DNA of 64,000 bases from Neelides folsomi. Taxonomy: Eukaryota; Arthropoda; Collembola; Neelipleona; Neelidae. The notes under the pieces are model-generated. The model searched no databases, was not told where the DNA came from, and was given only the letters and a program-made list of their open reading frames with translations. The position numbers and the translations under genes were made by a program. The DNA is taken from positions 370,453 to 434,452 of the forward strand of contig JAQGBZ010000020.1 of assembly GCA_034687125.1 (NCBI GenBank), written 5' to 3'. Below, piece by piece: positions 6,090 to 55,405 of this stretch (positions are counted from its first letter, which is position 1; each line of letters opens with the position of its first letter).

Positions 6090-6092
6090 GAA

Positions 6093-9000
6093 ATGAGTTC
6101 GAACATGATCTACGGCCTTTGCAACGGAGGAATCGGCCCGGACACTTTTCCCACCACCACCAATAGCGGCGTCAATGCCAGCGTCCAACATCTCCCTTCC
6201 CAACATCTACACCAAAACGTTTACCATCAGCACTTTCCCGAAACCACCACGAGCGGATATTCCTCCTATGCCCAGAACGACTTCTACGGGGGCTACAATC
6301 ACCCGAATGGCGGGTCCTCGCCGGAGGGAATCTCGCCCGACAACAACGGCCTTTCCTACACGAACCTCGAACCCGGGTATAATTTCTACAACGGCGGGGC
6401 CGCGACGACGACGGCCAATTCGACGGCCAATTCCTACGAGATGGGGGCGAGTCCCGTCCTGGCCGACCCCGTCGCTCCCTCCGTCTACTCCTACACGGCC
6501 GAGTTCCCCCGGGGGGAGATGTGCGAAGGGGGGAGTTATCCTCTGGGCGGCGGGTTCCATAACGGCGGAGGAGTCCTCAACCTCCCGCCCCACACGCACA
6601 GTTCCTGTCTGCTCTCCTCAAACCAGATGACCCACGGCGGGATGGGACTCGTACAGCAAGCTTCCATTCAGCACTTGGGAAACACAGGGAATTTGATACA
6701 GCCTCATCAGAACAACCCAAATGTCCCGACCTACAAGTGGATGCAAGTCAAGAGAAATGTTCCTAAACCCACACCTCAAGGTAATTAAACCCGTTTTAAT
6801 TTAATTCTTATTCAATTCCCAATAAATAGTCATCTAATTAATGAACATGTAATTAATGAACTTTAATCATTTAAGTTATATGTAGCATTAAATGTTACTT
6901 TAAATGTAATTTAAATCCTTGCACTTATCACCAAATGAGGAAGAACAGAAATGTTAAATTTGTCTGGAGGGATTAAAGGGGAAAGTAAACAATGGGAGTT
7001 GGAATGAAAAACTACGTTTTGATCAACTCCGAAGCTCAAGTGACATTTTCATGAGCACCGGGGAGTGATTAGATAAAAGGGATTAAGGTGAAGGAACCAA
7101 ATCTCTTTTTATCTTTTATTTTCCTTACTAAGCCACCACTCACTTTGATTCAATGATTAAACTTTTCACTCTTATCAACTCATACCATAGTTAATTCATT
7201 TAGATATACAAATACTTATTTATAACATTTATCATTGCTTAACATTATTTTTATAATTTATAGTTAGTCAATGTTTCAATGAATTTGTTTATGAGAGTTA
7301 GTTTGGGCGAACAAAGCTAGTGGCTTAAGATAAGGTTTTTAAGCGTAACTTTAAATGCATTTTTAAATCTGTAACTCATGATCTTTTTTCAATTTAATAG
7401 ACAGCGGAATTCATAACTTAAGCAATGGTACGCCAAAATTACTTTTTTGTATTACAAATTTGCCATTACACTTTAGCCATTTAGTGAATAATTTAGATGT
7501 TTTTATCATTGAATAGACTATATATAATTTATAATAGACTATATTTTGTAACTATGTGTTTTTAATTAACTATGTTGTTCTTGTTTTATTTACCGGAATT
7601 CAAACTAATCCGAACTACAGATAGGTATTTATGTATTAATAGATGGAATCATACGATGGTTTGATGTTATTGTTTATCGTAATCTTCCCAGACATTGTGC
7701 AATTAAATCGTCATCTGTGAGCTATAAACTGATTGTTTCAAAATCATGTGGTCGGGGAGATAGGACGGGAGTTATTGACAATTTAATCTCCATTATCTTC
7801 CTCATGCCAATCAGGATGTTTGAATTTACGAGCCAGTTGAGGTTGACGGCTTCAACGGCGGCAACTTTTCAAAGAACAATTTAACGAGGAAATTCTTTTC
7901 ATTCTGCATTGAGAAAATAAATTTCCCAATCAGAGGTTCATTTACACTTCAAATACCCTTCTTATAATTCTTCCATTCACCCCCAATGATTTGTCATTTA
8001 AAGACATCATTTTTTGACCTGTAACGCTTTTAAACTTTTAACATGAAATTATAAGACATTAAACATTATTATACGAATTAAAAAAGCATTATGAGTTTTG
8101 TGAGAGTTGTAATGTGTATAAATGCATTGAGTATAAAATGTGTTTGTTATAATGCAGAAATGTATAGGGATTTTTCATTGCTTGAAATGGCCGTGAGGGA
8201 ATTTTGGACTCCGCGGTGAAGAGGAAAAAGGAGATAAAAAAGCTAACTGTCTTCTTCCTTGTCAGAGACATTTCATTAATTCTCAACCCCGAAGCTCAAA
8301 AATGTGACAATGATTATTGTTGGACATTTGAAGGCTTACAACTTTCGGCAGCTTTTGACCTCTTCAAATGGAACTTGGGGAGAAATGAGATCTTTTACTT
8401 CAAACATCTCAACAAATTCAATTCCAGATTCTTCCAATCTACGTATAATGTCTCAAGATCTCCATATAAAATTTTATTATCTTTGAGATGTTCTGTGTGA
8501 GATCTGTAAGATTTCTGAGATGTTCAGATCTGTAAGATTTGAAAGTTTAGATCCGTGAGATAAGAGAGAGTGTGTAAAAGGGTGAAATGAGTATTAAAAT
8601 GAGTCTGAGGATTGATGGGGTTTGGACGTGATTGGACCACCCTTCTTGTGAAGCCTCTAGGCGTGTAATTTGCATATGTCAAGTGTCAATTGGATTCATT
8701 TGATTGGGCGGGTATTGATAGGACCAAGCGGTTCGTGACAAATGTCATTTGAGTTCGTTGAGGATTTCTTTCAAGGTTTCATCCCTTGGATTTGCCCCCT
8801 ACCCACGCAAATCCCTCATCTATTCAAAATCATGTTTTCCCTCTGTCATCGCCCATCATTTCACCAACTTCACATTCAGAGCTTTACATACTTTACATAT
8901 AAGTCCAGTATGAAAGATATTCAAATACTATTACTTTCTAAAACGAACACTTGTTGTAATTCAGTTATCTTCTATACATTTATCATCATCGTATTGTATT

Positions 9001-12000
9001 TTATCTTAATGTATTTTATATGCGTACTATGAGCTTCTCTTGGTTATTTTTAGCATCAGGATGACAAAAACAAGATAGTTAAAATGACAAAATGCTTCCG
9101 GGAAAGAAAAGGATAAGCATAGACTCCAAACAGTTTTAGCCTTATAAAAAAAGTATCGTATTTTTCCGAGGAAAGTTGGGGGAAGGAAGCAATATGTGAG
9201 TCATTTGTCATCTTCTTGGCATCTCAAGTGATGAGACCTGAGAGTTTCCCATTCATCTATTGATCTATTCAAGATCCACTCGAGATCATCCCAAGTTGAT
9301 CCATAGGAAGGAGAAAAAAGATGGTGCAAATGGAGAGTGAGTCAGAGTCTATTCAACCAGTCACCCGCACAATTCAGGAGAATATAATGGAAAAACTTTT
9401 ACAACATTTTTACCCCAAAGGCACCGACGTTCAAAACTCCCCTTTGGAAAAGTTCTCCCTTCCCCCAAAACTGTTATTGACTATCTCAATTCCACAGAGA
9501 ACTTCCATTCCACGCTAGTCCTTTAATTTGTTTAATGCCAGGCCAAATTTTTGTTGGGTTTTATGTTCAAATAAAATCCAATTCCGCAAGGTTGGAGATC
9601 TTTGTGAAATAACCCAAGAGTCATAAGAGTTAATGTGGAACTAATAAAGAAAAGGAGGATTGGGCCTTAATTAGACGATTAATAATTTTTATGTGGTCCG
9701 TGAGGGAAGTCTATAAAATGAGAGTGAGGGCAGGAGAAGAAGTTTAATTTCTCTACCGGTCCCTATCAAAGGAAGAGATCTTTTATTGACCAAGGAGCTT
9801 TGCCCCTTTTAGTATTTTATAGTCTTGATAGGGAAATCTCTGGGAAAAAACTATTTTTGCGAATTTAATCGACATGTCGAGGGAAGGAATGTGAGTCATA
9901 AGGGGAAAAGATTTGAGTGGTGAGGAAAGGTCCAAAACACGCCACTTATTCTCAAATGCTCAAATCTCCCTCATTCATTAACACCCATTTCAGTCCATTC
10001 CAAGTTTAGAGGAATATTATGAATTAAATACCAACAATTTTATCAAACTCTCAACCACTTTATTTCTTAAATATCGAATGTTCAATTAATTTATATAACT
10101 TTAAAATATACACTAAAAATTTAATTGTAAATAAACTAATTGAATTGCAAACATTTATTTTTGGTAGTTGACAATTAAATTATTTAAGTAAACTTTTAAT
10201 CATTTTATTTAAATTGATTTTAATGTTACGTATTGGATTTTGAATATTTTGCACGGATATACAGTTGTATTTGAATTTGATCGTATGGAGAAAGTGGAGT
10301 CATAAAGAGAAATGGCTTTGAGTTCTGGAAGGGTTGCTTGGGCCGAGATAGGAGCAAAGATAAACCTCCAACAACGACCAAAGCACGAACTCCCGAATAT
10401 TTTTTCCATCAACTTACAAACTCCGACATTCGGATTAAGCAGAAAAGCAAATCCCATAAGCTCCAACACATTTTTCCTTTTCATTCAATCCTCAATACAT
10501 TTTATAAAAATTGCCAATAAATAATTCAATAATAGGAATTCATTGAATTTAAAATATCTCAATTTATTCACCTTAAATCATTCGCTTCAAATCCAAATTC
10601 CTTTGTATATTAAAATCCTAATATGGAACTGAAAGTGTTAACGATCAATTATTTGTGATAACGTGGGAAGAAGATGGCCGCTCCGGCCATGACGTTGTTT
10701 TTGTTCATCTTTTGGTCAACAAGGTGTTTATTTGCGCCCCGCGAGGCAGCGAGTGGTGAAGCGGGAAGAAAGGAGGCCTTTGGATTCGGATTGGATTTGC
10801 TTCTCCGCTCCCATTCCCTTTGTATTTCCCCCGAATTACCAACTCTGACTGTCGCGTCCAGCGAATGATGGATCGCTCCAACATTCTCCCAACCTTTCAC
10901 GAGAACTTCGCCCTCACCAAAAGAAAAATAAAACTTTTTCCCCTGCTGCTCCGCCGACCGTTGAAAAAACACTTTTTTATTCCATTCAAAATCCTCGTAC
11001 AATGAACAACAATACAAAAAATCCCCTTACTGGTGAAAATCCAATCCATAGGACAGTTTTAGCATTCAGAGCGAACAGCCCAGAGGAAATTCTTACTTTA
11101 TATAAGATAGAATTTAATTTAACTGATTTTTCTAGTACTTATATAATATTCTATTACATGATAATACTTACTGATAGTACAGATATCCTCTATACTATAC
11201 AAATGAAAATATGTATAGAGTACATAAGAAGCTTATCAACTTATAAGATGTTTGTACTACTGATATTGAATATACTATACATAAATTACAGATCATATAC
11301 CAGATAGTGATTGATTGACAATGGTGTTAAGGGTCCTATGCAAATAATTGAATTAAGGAGTCATCGGTCAATTAGAGCAATGTGATTCATTCATTAAGAT
11401 CTGACTTTTTTTCCAGTGGGTGGGAGCGAATTCGGGAACGGCGTGTTGACCGCAGGCGGAGGGAATCATCTAGGCAATTCCCTCATGGGCGGCAGCGGGG
11501 GTCACGGGGGCAGCGGAGGTGCTGCGGGTCGGACGAATTTCTCCACGAAGCAGCTAACGGAGCTTGAGAAGGAGTTCCACTTCAACAAGTACCTCACCCG
11601 GGCGAGGCGGATCGAAATCGCCTCTGCTCTCTCACTCAACGAAACACAGGTGAGGACAAAATTCAATATTTAAATCGATCCTTCTCAACTTCTTCAATGC
11701 TCAATGAAAAAATTAAATCACTTTGAAAGAGATTAATCTCTTAATTAATCTCTAATGTCAATTAATATTAAATACAAATTACATTACAAGTAGGATTCAG
11801 CAATAACAATAATAAGTTGTATTGTAGTTAATTGTAAATAATAAAGTTAATTATATTTTCAGGTGAAGATCTGGTTCCAGAATCGTCGTATGAAGCAGAA
11901 GAAGCGAATGAAAGAGGGTTTGGTGGTTCCTCAGGAGAGCGGCGGAGTGAACGGAACGTCGCCGACGACGCCCGACACCCCGTCCGACAATTCCAACTCC

Positions 12001-32089: not shown

Positions 32090-33827
32090 ATATTGAAATT
32101 ATTGAAAGAGAAGCGAAGATGAGTTGTGAACATTCTCCCACCGGAATTCTCGATTTTCAAAACAAACATGCTACGAATATAAATATTTAATACTCAATTT
32201 TGAAAACTTTCCAACGAAGTCTGTTTCCTTTTATACAAAAAACAACCATTTTGTTACCGGTATATTCAATAAGGCAATAATTTTTAAATTGTAAGAGTAG
32301 TTGAGAATCTCATAACATTTTCTAGTTTTTATGAGCTAATTGTTACCTTTTCAATTTTTCATTTTCTTAATATGTATTTCCTATTAAAATAGACTTTGAG
32401 CGAAGTGTGGAATTTCAATTAAAGTCATTTTGTGATTTGTAATACACTTGTGAAGGATTTATACGAACATATGTGCCATAATTTCGTTAATAAGAGATTT
32501 CCCTCGTCACAATAAACTTTGAATGAAAATGTTGATTTGACTTTAACGTCAATTCAACATGCTCACTATAATTGAAGATTTAACTTTCTTTTTTGACTAG
32601 AAAAGTCTTCATTATCTTTATCCAATGAATCTAACGTAATTTTGATTCAATCTGCGAACACTTTCACATTTGAAAGTTTTGTTAAAATGAATTTCTTCAT
32701 TTTAGCTACCTTCTATTCATTAACAGACTGATATATTTATATAAATATGTATCACTATATTATCAATACACTAACAATCAATTATGTTAACCAATTGTGC
32801 TAATATATAAAATCAAAAAGAATATAAAAATGTAATAGTATTTACAGTACACAACATGCGTATTAAAATTGAATTTACATTTTAATAAAAATCAAATAAT
32901 TTTTACCAATCAAAATGTGATTGCATAACATTCGTACCCTGCATTAGCTTTTACATATTATTATGTATATCAATTTGAATTATAATATATTATTTAACAA
33001 CATGAGTTAAATTGTAATTAATTGTTAACATTATTTAATATTGCTTGACATAACCATCTAATTATTTGTATCTTAATCTTAATCCATTTGTATTCAATAT
33101 TTCATTAATAAAATGTAAACTAATTATTTAAGGTTGAATTAGAACAAGCCCTATCCCTCTAAATGGGTTAGAGTCTAGATATTATAGGGCCAGCCTCGAA
33201 GTTTTTTCCTCAAAAATCAAAGTTGTTCAGAATGTCGAGAAAAACATTTTGAGACACATACAAAACAGAGGTACATACAAAACCTAACCTAACCTAAACT
33301 AAACTAATCTGACATAACCACATATTCAACCACATATTTAGGTTAGGTTAGGTTAGGTTTGTTTTAATGTTGCTTAATTCACCAATAAAGACTTTACAAA
33401 CCTGATGAGTGGTGTTTCTTTTCGGAATCAATAACTCGTTAATTAATGAATTATTATTCTTTATATAAGTTTATATACACATTAAATAGAAAATTACCTA
33501 TTGAATAACATTTCGTATATTAATTATTGATTAAAGTCACTGGTAATTATATATTTAGAATAATTAACAAATTTGAGTCAATTATTAAGTCTTTAATTAT
33601 TGTGTGTTCCATTTCACGTGTCCAAGGATCCATAGTTGAATTATTAACTATTAAAAATGTTGAAAAATGTTCTAGAAGGGAAATTGCCAATTTATGCACA
33701 TTTGAATATTCAACCACATCTCGCCCAAAATGAGCATTTTAGAATATTTTTTAATAATTCGACTCGCACATGGACAGTTAGTCGAAAAGACAATACTGAC
33801 ATGGCGACTGGAATTCCCCCTTAGAGC
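32090..33827. other. AT-rich intergenic region right of P4HA
   Basis: 1.7 kb containing the P4HA 3' UTR and long AT-rich DNA. The only structure recognised is the inverted CCTAA/TTAGG pair listed separately. No coding exon. Confidence 0.55.
33281..33360. repeat. Inverted CCTAA / TTAGG tracts
   Basis: A CCTAA tract (33281-33299) and a TTAGG tract (33338-33360) face each other across about 40 bases, forming a palindrome of telomere-type repeats. Between them accacatatt is repeated. It may be a foldback element or a healed break site. Confidence 0.7.
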
Positions 33828-34515
33828 CTTGAAATATTTTGGTGAATTGATATTCATTTTGAGGAATGCTGCTGCATGAAGGGGAAACTCTACCGCCCTG
33901 ACATTTCCCACTATCTCTTCCAATGGACCAAAAGGCAAGTAATCTGATTCGGTTCACGTTTGCTCATTCGACCAACTTCTTTGCATGTCTCAACTCGAAC
34001 ATCCGCCCATCGAAGTTTCGCCCGAGCATTGGAGTAACGCCGAGCATTCCCTTTACCTCACCCTCGCACTTCTCCGGCCAAATTCCCCTGATTTGGGATA
34101 AAACGGCCCCAGCCGCCGCAATGACACTTTCCCCCACTCGAGCTGACTTGGATATTCCATAGTCATGGCATTCACAATGTCAACCCGAACTCCATGCTTT
34201 TTTGTCGAACGGAGAACACTCGTACCCAAATCCTTTGTTAATCCATAATCATCTCCTTACAAGTAGGAGGTAATCAGGTAGTGTCAATGAGACCTTAAAA
34301 TTAATTAATTGAATTATTATTTATAATATTCATAGATTTTCCATGATAATTTGATAAATAATAATTTTATAGATTTTGGGAACGCGAACATTAAATGTTA
34401 AATGAACCTAACCACTCTTTTATAACAACTTTTAAAAATGTGGATAATATGTGTAATGCACTAAATGGGTTTATGGTGGTGTACATAATATATTCTTAAA
34501 ATCTTATTTTGCTAT
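33828..34515 (-). pseudogene. Truncated GH18 chitinase copy
   Basis: This is a close copy of the last exon and part of the last intron of the GH18 gene at 37355-38720; similarity starts at cttgaaatattttgg and fades around 34515, near the exon 2 boundary. It is broken in at least three ways. One C is missing from the run at about 34129-34133 (five C against six in the intact gene), which shifts the frame inside the exon. Bases caagtaggaggtaat are inserted near 34265. The last codons differ after KIFQ. Exons 1 and 2 are absent. The shared intron shows it arose by DNA duplication, not retrotransposition. Direction is the same as the intact gene, with CDC34 between them. It lacks the MITE found in the intact copy's intron. 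Confidence 0.85.
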
Positions 34516-37354: not shown

Positions 37355-38720
37355 TTATTTAAAGTCTTGAAATATTTTGGTGAATTGATATTCATTTTGA
37401 GCTATGCTGCTGCATGAAGGAGAAACTCCACCGCCCGGACATTTCCCATTATCTCTTCCAATGGACCAAAAGGCAAGTAATCCGATTCGGTTCACGTTTG
37501 CCCATTCGACCAACTTCTTCGCATGTCTCAACTCGAACATCCGCCCATTGAAATTTCGCCCGAGCATTGGAGTAACGCCGAGCATTCCCTTTGCCTCGCC
37601 CTCGCTCTTCTCCGGCCAAATTCCCCTGATTTGGGATAAAACGGCCCCAGCCGCCGCAATGACACTTTCCCCCCACTCGAGCTGACTTGGATATTCCATA
37701 GTCATGGCATTCACAATGTCAACCCGAACTCCATGCTTTTTTGCAGAAAGGAGAACATCCGTACCCAAATCCTTTGTTAATCCATAATCATCTCCTTGAA
37801 CAGGTAGTGTGAATGACACCTTAAAATTACATAATTGAAACATAATACATAATAGGGTGGGCCATAAGTATTTTTCTTTTTTATACAATTGTTTATTTAA
37901 AAAAGAAAGATACTTATGGCCCACTCTGTATATAATATTCATAGATTTTTCATGATATATTGATAAATAATAATTATAGATTTTAGCAACGTTGAACGTT
38001 AAAAGAACCTAACCATACTTTTATATAACAACTTTTAATAATGTGGATAATATGTGTAAATGCACTAAATGGGTTTATGGTGGTGCACTTGTATACTTAA
38101 TGCCTTATTTTGTTATTTATTTTTGTTTTACCGTTGTTTTTGGTCGTTCTTTTTGTAATTGAGCCAAAGCCCCGTTGAGAATATCCAAATTAATTGGAGC
38201 TTCAACGTCAATGTCTAAATGATTGGTTTTGACAGCGTCGAGAACTTTGATATATCCCTTAACAAGAGCTTCTTGAGTGTTGCACAAATGTTCCAAATAA
38301 GGCCCCGCGGCACCTCCAGTCGCAACAATGAAATCTCCTCCTTCAGCTTGAATTTTCCGTATTGGTTCGATGATTTCTGGGTCGTCAATGTCGTTGGCCG
38401 CTCCCCATTTGGGTTCACAACCAAGATAACTTCCAAGAGCAAAGGCAAGTGTGAAAACCTTTTGGCCGCTCTTTAAATAAACTTCCGTCAATTTCGGACT
38501 TTCTTTCAAATTCACGTCGAAATAAGGGGCAAACTTTGGGCCTGAAAATACCAAACATTTTTACCAACTATTTAAACTATTTTGTATAATTACTGTGGGT
38601 TGAAGCAGAGGGGATTTCATTATCTTCCGGTCTTGAGACATTTACAAACTCGTTTCCTCTCATTCCAAAGGAAAAATGTAAAAAAATTATTAAAAGCGTC
38701 ACTGACAAATTAAACTCCAT
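37355..38720 (-). CDS. GH18 chitinase-like secreted protein
   Basis: Glycoside hydrolase family 18 protein, likely acting on chitin or a related N-acetylglucosamine polymer outside the cell. Exons 38720-38594, 38541-38132 and 37819-37355 give 333 residues. The first exon supplies a signal peptide (MEFNLSVTLLIIFLHFSFG). The barrel then shows KFAPYFDVN, VFTLAFALGS, the SxGG-type strand FIVATGGAAGP and the catalytic strand NHLDIDVEAP with D152, D154 and acid E156, followed by VRVDIVNAMTMEYP and LLAFWSIGRDNG. The classic DxxDxDxE motif has Asn at its first position. It belongs to the bacterial/fungal-style GH18 class, not the usual arthropod cuticle chitinases, which fits ancient transfer but does not prove it. 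No chitin-binding domain follows. A broken partial copy lies beyond CDC34, and a MITE sits in intron 2. Confidence 0.85.
37855..37928. mobile_element. ~75-bp mariner-type MITE, copy 2
   Basis: Ends gggtgggccataagta and tacttatggcccactctg are inverted repeats matching the MITE at 2281-2355, with TA on both sides. It lies in intron 2 of the GH18 gene. The duplicated pseudogene intron (about 34300-34330) has an uninterrupted attatttataatattc at the matching place, so this is a filled/empty site pair. Confidence 0.8.
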
Positions 38721-52245: not shown

Positions 52246-55200
52246 TCAAATGGTTCCCAAGGGAGTAATGACTTTCGCTTCAATCTGCTCAAACGAAGGT
52301 TCCTTGGAATCTTTTTCTTTGATCAATCGTCGGCGTCTGATAGGAAATCCTCCAATTGCGTTATTTTCGGGAGCATTGAAGTTATTCGGAACTTGAAACC
52401 CAGGAGCCAAAGTCGGATTGTTGAGAGAAAATTGGCTTGGAGCTTGGAAATTTTGGAATGACTGTGGTTGGAAAGGACTTTGTGTTGGGTTATCCAACGA
52501 ATTCCGGCTTGGCGTCTGGAATTGTGGGAACGGGCTTTGTGTTGGATTATTCAATGAATTTCTGCTTGGAGTGAACGGTTGCAGGAATGGGTTTGGAGTT
52601 GGATTATTCAAAGAATTTCGGCTCGGGGTTGGGAACGGTTGCTGGAACGGGCTTTGCGTTGGGTTGTTAATCGAATTTCTGCTCGGAGTGAACCGCTGTT
52701 GGAACGGGCTTTGCGTTGGGTTGTTAATCGAATTTCTGCTCGGAGTGAACCGCTGTTGGAACGGGCTTTGTGTTGGGTTGTTGATGGAATTTTGACTTGG
52801 GGTGACGAATGGATTTTGAAACGGGCTTTGTGTCGGGTTGTTGAGCGAGAATTGGCTTGGCGTCGGGAACGGGCTCTGTGTTGGGTTGTTGAGCGAGTCT
52901 TGGCTTGGAGTTGGGTCTGCCCTGGGCAAAGAGTCCAATAGCTGGAACGCTTGAGCTCCTGTCAACCCGTTCACTCCTGGATTTTCACATTGTGGACTTA
53001 CAATGAATCGATTTGGGCTTCCTTGTGGCTGTGGAACTCCATAGTCACCCAAGCTGTAACCACCGTAACCACCGAAACCACCTGTGCCACTCGTTCGGGT
53101 CAGACTTGGAATGAGCCTTTCGAGCATTCTCCTCATCACTTCCACTTGTGGTCCGTTTTGAGTAGCTAAGAAATTTTAATAATTAATTTTAAATAAAAAA
53201 TGATTATTTTATTATTACTCTTAGAAAAAAAAGGAATATAAGTCAATAATGTTTTATAAAAATATTCACACTGTTCTCATTGTCTTATACAAATATTTAT
53301 TGGGATAAAAATTATTTACCAAATTGACTTCCAGTTAATCCAAAGGTGTCCCAACATCCTTCTTCGTTGTCACCCGAACTCATTGCTTGTGGAAAGATCA
53401 TGACAATGTCGTTGGTTTCGGCAACTTGCAAAAACCCGCTATTTAAAATGTGATTTGTTCCATTGAATTCTCTGTAATGTAAATAAAATAATTTAATTAG
53501 TATAATGAAATTGCCAAATTGAAAGTTTTACTCATCATATATACATGAAATTTTTATTATTTTCCTAAAGTGAAATTTCTAGAAACGTTTATTGTCAAAC
53601 CTTCCTGTGGCACAACCGTGGAAATAAAAATGTAGGAGGCAATTTATTGTCGAATCCCTGCACCTAGATGGTATGTACATGTAACCAATCCTATCCATAA
53701 AAGCCTCTCCTACGCCGTTAAAAAATTCTGATTGGTCAAATTGAATTAAAGGATGAACTGCGAGGATTCCTTTATAGAACAAAATTAATTTTAAATGGAA
53801 TTTAAATGAATGTGGATTGATATATCATTATCGTTAGACATTGCGGATTAAACAAAATGGAATAAAAAATTTAAATCTCAATTTACTTGCAGGAGCTCTG
53901 AGCAATCTCATCAAAAGGAAATTAAGACCTTCGTAAGCACCATGGTAATTGCAATTGGCAATGAAGAAATTATTTGAAGCGTCATCCATACAATTTCCGC
54001 CAAATGAATTTGTTGGCTAAATAAATTGTATTATAAAATTTAATTAAATTGTAAAATACTTAAATTAGATAAAACTGTAATTAAATTATTTTATGTTTAT
54101 TTTAAATTAAGTTAATTACTAAAACAGTATCAGCAATTTGAACTTGTACAAAAATATTTGACAGATTTCCAATGTAAGGTTCATAAAATTCCAAAATTCT
54201 CAAACTTTGATCTAAAATGTATATATATATATATATTTTTTTTTTATTTTCTATTATCATATTATTATTATATCAATTTATCATTTTGAATAAAAATTTA
54301 TTTCATATTTTTAATACGACACCTGTTGAAAATTTTGCACTTCTCGTCCCAGCGAAAACATACAACCTTGTATTTCTCAAGTTGAGCGGATTTTCAATTA
54401 ATCCTGAAAGAGCATTAATTTCGTATTCTCTAATGGAATTTGACACATTGTAGTCACGGCGAGTTCTTTGGCTAGCAGAATTTAATCTTGTGCAAGAAGA
54501 TTCGTAATCTTCAATTCTCCCTGACGGCGAACCACATCGGTAATAGGCTAAAATTGAAAAAATCTTTAAATTAGTTTATCATTAAATTATTTGGTAATTT
54601 TCTCGTATTTCCAAAGTGTCCCAATTTAAGAAATTGCAAAAATCTCAAATCAAAATTTTGTTCTTTTCTAGAGAATATTAATTATTACTTTCAATTAATA
54701 TTAAATATTATATACTTTCTGTTTAATACAATACTAACTAGAAAAGAACAAATTAAAAATATATAAAAAGCTCTCAATAAAAGATATAGCTTTGATCAGA
54801 GTATCAGAGATATACAGCTTTTATTCTCACATTTAATTGCTTATAGTTTAATTAACTTACTAATAAACTGTCAAATAGGTAAAAAAAACTTACTATCGGA
54901 GAAAACGGCAATTCCATCAAAAAGACTTGAATAAGATAATTGGAATTGTTGAGCCATCACGCCACCACTTGAAAATCCACTCAAAGTGATATGATTCGCA
55001 TTGAGATTCATTGGACCTTGAATTTTAAAAATTTCCATGTACTTAAAAACAATTAACTTTGAGACTATAACCAAAGATTGATTAAATATCACCAAATTTA
55101 TTTATGCGTCTATTTACACAACTAGCCACCCATTTTCCCATTTAAAGAAATCTCATATTTCCCATACACTTATAAAAATCATTATAAAAAGAATAAATAT

Positions 55201-55405
55201 AATTTGTCAAATACTTCATCCCAAATTAATAAATTGAAAATTGAACACCAAAATAATGAAATAAAATTTTTCATTATTTAATTCTCTGAATCAAGATTTT
55301 ATTTTGTTACTTACTCAATCTTGCAGTTCTCTGATTGGTTCTTGAACGTTGACAATTTACTGTCTGCATGAAAATTGCAAACAAAAATAATTTTAAGAAG
55401 TTCAT
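52246..55405 (-). CDS. PHB-depolymerase-like secreted alpha/beta hydrolase with repeat tail
   Basis: Eight exons: 55405-55315, 55016-54894, 54547-54323, 54211-54120, 54016-53887, 53769-53601, 53471-53320, 53165-52246, giving 633 residues. A signal peptide (MNFLKLFLFAIFMQTVNC) is followed by a hydrolase with the circularly permuted order of fungal poly(3-hydroxybutyrate) depolymerase: lipase box GFSSGG near the N-terminus (nucleophile S46), a middle region with NCMDDASNNFFIANCNYHGA, then the HGC oxyanion motif (271-273) and NSGFLQVAETNDIVMIFPQA with GCWDTFG. Where the family's Asp and His of the triad should stand I read AGTRSAKF and IADTVLPT, with neither residue in place, so catalytic activity is doubtful. 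Residues 413-584 are nine Asn/Pro/Gln-rich repeats. This family is mainly microbial, so horizontal origin is possible. Confidence 0.8.
52396..52911 (-). repeat. Nine coding repeats, TPSRNSLNNPTQSPF type
   Basis: Inside the last exon of the PHB-depolymerase-like gene, about nine units of 16-24 residues share the core TPS(R/Q)xS(L/I)NNPTQSPF with variable QQRF/QPF spacers. Central units are almost identical in DNA, showing recent unit turnover. Unit length differences are multiples of three, so frame is kept. Confidence 0.9.

Follow-up and report, generated by a model that had tools for sequence, protein, structure and literature searches.

A predicted permuted type 2 PHA-depolymerase-like protein of Neelides folsomi without the triad Asp and His of its family

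Described depolymerases and related proteins without a triad

In serine hydrolases of the alpha/beta-hydrolase fold, a His residue activates the nucleophilic Ser, and an Asp residue orients the His. The PHB depolymerase of Penicillium funiculosum (structures 2D80 and 2D81) has the triad S39-D121-H155; S40 and C250 constitute its oxyanion hole, and W307 recognizes the ester, as described in PMC9878459. In type 2 depolymerases, the oxyanion-hole region is located C-terminal to the triad region (PMC2666664). Animal proteins of the alpha/beta-hydrolase fold that have no functional triad are an established class, and neuroligin, neurotactin, gliotactin, glutactin, and a thyroglobulin domain are given as members in PMC5943944. 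Among the papers listed in searches of the open-licence PMC literature, none describes an animal PHB-depolymerase-like protein, as judged by titles and the starts of abstracts.

Gene model, family assignment, and surrounding genes

The window, that is, the whole stretch of 64,000 nucleotides of N. folsomi DNA that was analysed, contains a depolymerase-like gene on its minus strand at positions 55405 to 52246. A splice model made from the sequence gave one gene of eight exons whose introns are all GT-AG, and the spliced product is a single frame of 1902 bases encoding 633 residues. The coordinates, exon number, and protein length proposed in a first-pass annotation were all reproduced by this model. 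The annotation had also described the exons as in phase, which holds for the spliced frame but not for the introns, whose phases are mixed (1, 1, 1, 0, 1, 2, and 1, in order). An alternative in-frame acceptor of exon 6, located 12 bases later, would remove four residues and give a protein of 629 amino acids; it has no effect on the triad argument. The exons and the codons at the three triad positions are as follows.

55315..55405, minus strand: exon 1, residues 1-30 and the first base of residue 31, with the hydrophobic start MNFLKLFLFAIFMQTVNC, a putative signal peptide
54894..55016, minus strand: exon 2, lipase box S43-G-F-S46-S-G-G, holding the nucleophile Ser
54970..54972, minus strand: TCA, encoding S46, the nucleophile that is kept (Ser39 in 2d80)
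54323..54547, minus strand: exon 3, C76, C90, and the LYVFAG strand, after which comes the Asp position
54339..54341, minus strand: AGT, encoding S141 where 2d80 has the triad residue Asp121
54120..54211, minus strand: exon 4, DQSLRILEFYEPYIGN...QIADTVL, containing the His position
54126..54128, minus strand: ACT, encoding T175 where 2d80 has the triad residue His155
53887..54016, minus strand: exon 5, PTNSFGGNC...NCNYHGAYEGL, with C186 and C199 kept, and H202
53601..53769, minus strand: exon 6, FDQSEFF...HFYFHGC, with H271 and the oxyanion-hole C273 kept; alternative start at 53757
53320..53471, minus strand: exon 7, FPQA...GCWD, with W317 kept, equivalent to Trp307 of the fungal enzyme
52246..53165, minus strand: exon 8, the last part of the domain (to approximately residue 346), with a Gly/Tyr-rich stretch, the repeat tail, and RRRR between it and the stop codon

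The N terminus, MNFLKLFLFAIFMQTVNC, has a mean hydropathy of 1.95 over residues 3-14 and from this hydropathy may be read as a signal peptide; at least three 19-residue windows near residue 210 are slightly more hydrophobic than the N-terminal window. No paralogue was found within the window, where a tblastn search with the model returned its own exons and one chance match (E 4.8).

The first approximately 346 residues correspond to a complete permuted type 2 PHA depolymerase domain. Residues 33-345 matched positions 4-305 of the 305-position NCBIfam profile NF050059 (extracellular type 2 short-chain-length PHA depolymerase) with an E value of 7.6e-62, and the homology thus extends over the full length of the profile. 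The window protein shares with this family the whole domain, the permuted order, the lipase box, HGC, GCWD, and the Cys pattern. On the other hand, its score of 209.4 bits lies below the curated cut-off of 280, it has no triad Asp and His, and it carries a repeat tail. A Pfam search of the 633-residue model gave no significant family, the only match being PF02230 with an E value of 0.07, under its cut-off.

In a phmmer search against solved structures, the best match was the fungal PHB depolymerase 2d80 (E 3.1e-24, 89 bits), in an alignment that spans residues 30-338 of the window protein. An HMM built from 91 homologues, including the best 80 of at least 572 genome relatives, gave 254 bits for the window protein. 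Among the matches listed, the best single bacterial match scored 145 bits and the highest identity was 34%. The depolymerase kinship proposed in the first-pass annotation stands as regards a full-length permuted relative in a multi-exon animal gene, with the qualification that, among the matches listed, the closest are bacterial (145 bits for the best bacterial protein versus 89 bits for the one solved fungal enzyme). The S46 box GFSSGG comes first in the protein and is followed by HGC (residues 271-273), FPQA, and GCWD. The oxyanion-hole motif is accordingly C-terminal to the triad region, as in type 2 enzymes; the same permuted order had been noted before, and the phmmer alignment with 2d80 agrees with it. 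In a tree of 92 rows, the end branch of the window protein had a length of 2.8 compared with a median of 0.34. Because its placement in this tree is uncertain, no donor lineage is claimed.

Seven of ten other pieces of the window matched known families, namely a homeodomain, a nuclear-receptor ligand-binding domain, an ammonium transporter, Dus, a 2OG oxygenase, a ubiquitin-conjugating enzyme, and leucine-rich repeats. This content marks the window as animal DNA, and its make-up resembles that of an arthropod. Pieces of a homeobox gene lie on the plus strand at approximately 6090-11670 (Pfam homeodomain, E 4.5e-12) and appear similar to labial. In addition, pieces of a chitinase-like gene are present at 37358-38560 (minus strand) and 33821-34258. 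One of them matched the solved chitinases 3a4x, 2dsk, and 3a4w (E 1.5e-25), presumably from Pyrococcus furiosus, and the two pieces gave no Pfam or NCBIfam match. The chitinase-like gene has a partial second copy, 95% identical and 3.5 kb apart, and is perhaps a second prokaryote-type enzyme gene, approximately 14 kb from the depolymerase-like gene.

Residues at the triad positions and splice alternatives

The window protein has S46, S141, and T175 at the positions of the triad S39-D121-H155 of the P. funiculosum enzyme. The phmmer alignment with 2d80, the MAFFT alignment, and the HMM alignment all placed S141 (AGTR-S-AKF) in the Asp column and T175 (IAD-T-VLPT) in the His column. S46 lies on Ser39 of 2d80 within G44-F-S46-S-G48, a sequence of the GxSxG form, and coincides with the site at which 2d81 differs from 2d80 by Ala for Ser.

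Of the 33 plasmid records that matched, 10 contributed homologues, and to these the best 80 of at least 572 confirmed genome relatives and one viral contig were added. They were selected by similarity to the window and by peptide patterns, and rows from close strains are not independent in the counts. Ser, Asp, and His were each conserved in 91 of these 91 homologues; the conservation of Ser is biased upward because one of the search patterns includes the SSG box, whereas no pattern covers the Asp or the His column. None of the 91 rows was gapped at the columns flanking the Asp and His sites. Among the 16 columns that are invariant in this set, 14 are kept in the window protein, and its two departures are S141 and T175; if two departures were placed at random among the 16 columns, this pair would be obtained with a probability of 1/120. 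These results agree with the first-pass annotation, in which the nucleophile Ser had been read as retained and the triad Asp and His as absent.

For a wider count, 238 loci were reduced to 229 distinct aligned rows, of which 185 were full-length and 44 were partial and set aside; several of the partial rows have their motifs in another order, as in type 1 proteins. Of the full-length rows, 184 have S/D/H and the remaining one has A/D/N, so that Asp was present in 185 of 185 and His in 184 of 185. The window protein is the only full-length member without the triad Asp in comparison with these 185 rows; the loci are mostly best-scoring matches, together with 28 further matches, and further dead members may be missed in such a sample. 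In a smaller count of 149 loci, 142 of 145 distinct rows had S/D/H and three were gapped.

It is highly improbable, in our estimation, that the gene model or the assembly is wrong at both sites and that the true protein has the Asp and the His. The splice model was made from the sequence itself, and an earlier end of exon 3 is possible that would give AGTRNQSL, with an Asn near the Asp position. Open splice paths between LYVFAG and NSFGGN were listed with AG as the acceptor and either GT or GC as the donor. They were examined for an Asp at positions 2 to 5 after LYVFAG and for a His separated from NSFGGN by one to five residues (four in the form that the family would give). With at most two introns, 21 paths were open, and none of them supplied an Asp or a His at these places. 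With at most three introns, none of the 44 open paths (minimum intron of 30) or 50 open paths (minimum of 20) did so. No listed path thus corresponds to a corrected splice model with both residues, the outcome that had been named as contradicting the earlier reading. Furthermore, an in-frame TAG is located immediately before the PTNSF exon. The codons AGT of S141 and ACT of T175 are each at least two substitutions away from an Asp or a His codon, respectively, and single-base sequencing errors are therefore insufficient as a cause. Skipping of exon 4 was also considered and was ruled out, because the intron phases would put the product out of frame.

Retained residues, the C-terminal tail, and the Azospirillum copies

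Eight Cys columns that are at least 85% conserved in the 91 homologues are all kept in the window protein (C76, C90, C186, C199, C257, C264, C273, and C316), as are the oxyanion-hole residues S47 and C273 and the cleft Trp, W317. Two residues around the cleft that PMC7034887 names as contacts in 2D81 are changed: Y43 is replaced by V50, where 82 of 91 homologues have F or Y, and V124 by F144, where 75 of 91 have V.

Because the nucleophile and the oxyanion hole are retained, residual or altered chemistry could remain. We consider it unlikely that the protein is an active esterase with a changed substrate, in which the relay has been rebuilt with, for example, D147 or D174 as the acid and H202 or another His as the base. 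S46, S47, C273, and W317 are kept, D147, D174, and H202 are all present, and H202, in exon 5 (53887-54016), occupies a column with Asp in 82 of 91 homologues. However, 184 of the 185 full-length rows have Asp and His in their usual columns, and since the sole exception also has no Ser, no row among these has a shifted relay. S141 and T175 are in register with ungapped homologues, and H267 and H271 are invariant residues of the family and thus not new.

Downstream of the domain, exon 8 encodes a tail with the following features.

53038..53088, minus strand: Gly/Tyr-rich stretch GTGGFGGYGGYSLGDYG, residues 354-370
52396..52908, minus strand: nine tandem repeats of the type TPSRNSLNNPTQSPFQQPF, spaced 16 to 24 residues from start to start, mostly 19 or 20, with a DNA period of 57

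The repeats are rich in Pro, Asn, Ser, and Gln. When eight units were compared over 14 codons, pS was 0.67 and pN was 0.10, and the corresponding values for nine units over 15 codons were 0.76 and 0.15. The variable sites numbered 14 at the third codon position, four at the first, and four at the second. In the other two frames, stops were present and the bias was gone (pS of 0.17 and 0.14; pN of 0.24 and 0.23). This synonymous bias is the pattern that a translated and constrained tail would show, with the reservation that the units are duplicated and hence not independent. A run of four Arg residues (residues 604-607; 52327-52338) could be a processing site before a short charged tail.

A gene in decay, either a young pseudogene or a relaxed duplicate that is now functionless, seems to us very unlikely. 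The long end branch of the window protein is also compatible with relaxed constraint, and of 56 columns conserved in at least 85% of the 91 homologues, 41 are kept and 15 are changed. Against this stand the frame of 1902 bases, open across eight exons with GT-AG introns, the eight family Cys residues, the synonymous bias of the tail repeats, and the restriction of the departures among the 16 invariant columns to the two relay residues. With its Cys residues, oxyanion hole, and cleft Trp kept, and with repeat differences that are mostly synonymous, the gene does not look decayed.

Plasmid AZO_p1 of Azospirillum lipoferum 4B carries, at L150:1180-2217, a stop-to-stop frame of 346 codons in which Ala replaces the Ser, Asn replaces the His, and the Asp is retained. 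This A/D/N copy is a full-length type 2 domain located just upstream of an intact depolymerase gene, and one of the partial rows (L002) is a fragment of this A/D/N gene. The same arrangement of an A/D/N copy and an intact gene was found on a plasmid of Azospirillum sp. B510 (L239, frame from 800). In A. ramasamyi (L241), only a 157-codon frame with the same SGLAAGAF box is present upstream of the intact gene. The 5501 bases read in A. oryzae yielded the intact gene alone. The dN/dS between 4B and B510, calculated on the stop-to-stop frames, was 0.23 for the A/D/N copies and 0.17 for the intact copies. The Azospirillum copy resembles the window protein in that its type 2 domain is full-length and its triad incomplete, but it is bacterial, retains the Asp, has Ala for Ser and Asn for His, and its ORF ends with the domain and has no tail. 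Triad loss with continued constraint is thus not confined to the animal protein. The constraint on the A/D/N copies supports the idea that the fold can be kept for something besides hydrolysis, and it makes the finding in the window less unique.

Interpretation of the depolymerase-like protein

From the sequence we infer, with a probability of roughly 0.68, that the protein would be secreted and that its type 2 PHA-depolymerase-type domain, having neither base nor acid, would be non-hydrolytic and would work as a binding or assembly module together with the repeat tail. The general base would have been lost by the replacement of His with T175 and the acid by that of Asp with S141, while the Ser, the oxyanion hole, the Trp, and the Cys residues stay. 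Because His and Asp are both missing, PHB hydrolysis by the usual route is not expected; a Ser without the relay could not be activated in the usual way, and polyester hydrolysis has most likely gone. The kept Cys residues, nucleophile elbow, oxyanion hole, and Trp, in combination with the low-complexity tail, suggest a folded and probably disulfide-bonded module with a binding or structural role, perhaps associated with a matrix. The earlier reading of an inactive protein is thus well backed by the sequence, and the new role that it proposed is plausible. The Pro/Asn/Ser/Gln-rich tail may then serve outside the cell as an extended linker or as a matrix-forming part.

As an alpha/beta-hydrolase relative whose triad appears not to be functional, the window protein would fall into the non-catalytic class and would resemble the other animal relatives in this respect. 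The members treated in PMC5943944 are cholinesterase relatives, whereas the window protein belongs to the permuted PHA-depolymerase branch and has a low-complexity tail. The principle of dead alpha/beta-hydrolase proteins in animals is therefore known, and what is new lies in the family branch and in the tail.

A more tentative and rather doubtful proposal is that an animal lineage adopted a bacterial polyester depolymerase, disabled its relay, and fused it to a Gly/Tyr-rich stretch and a repeat tail, resulting in an extracellular matrix, cuticle, or adhesive protein. If this were true, a plastic-digesting enzyme would have been turned into building or binding material. Dead alpha/beta-hydrolase proteins of animals are known from the cholinesterase branch, and one that stems from the permuted PHA-depolymerase branch and carries a repeat tail would represent a separate origin of the same trick. 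Family matches alone would then be poor ground for labelling such animal genes as bioplastic-degrading enzymes.
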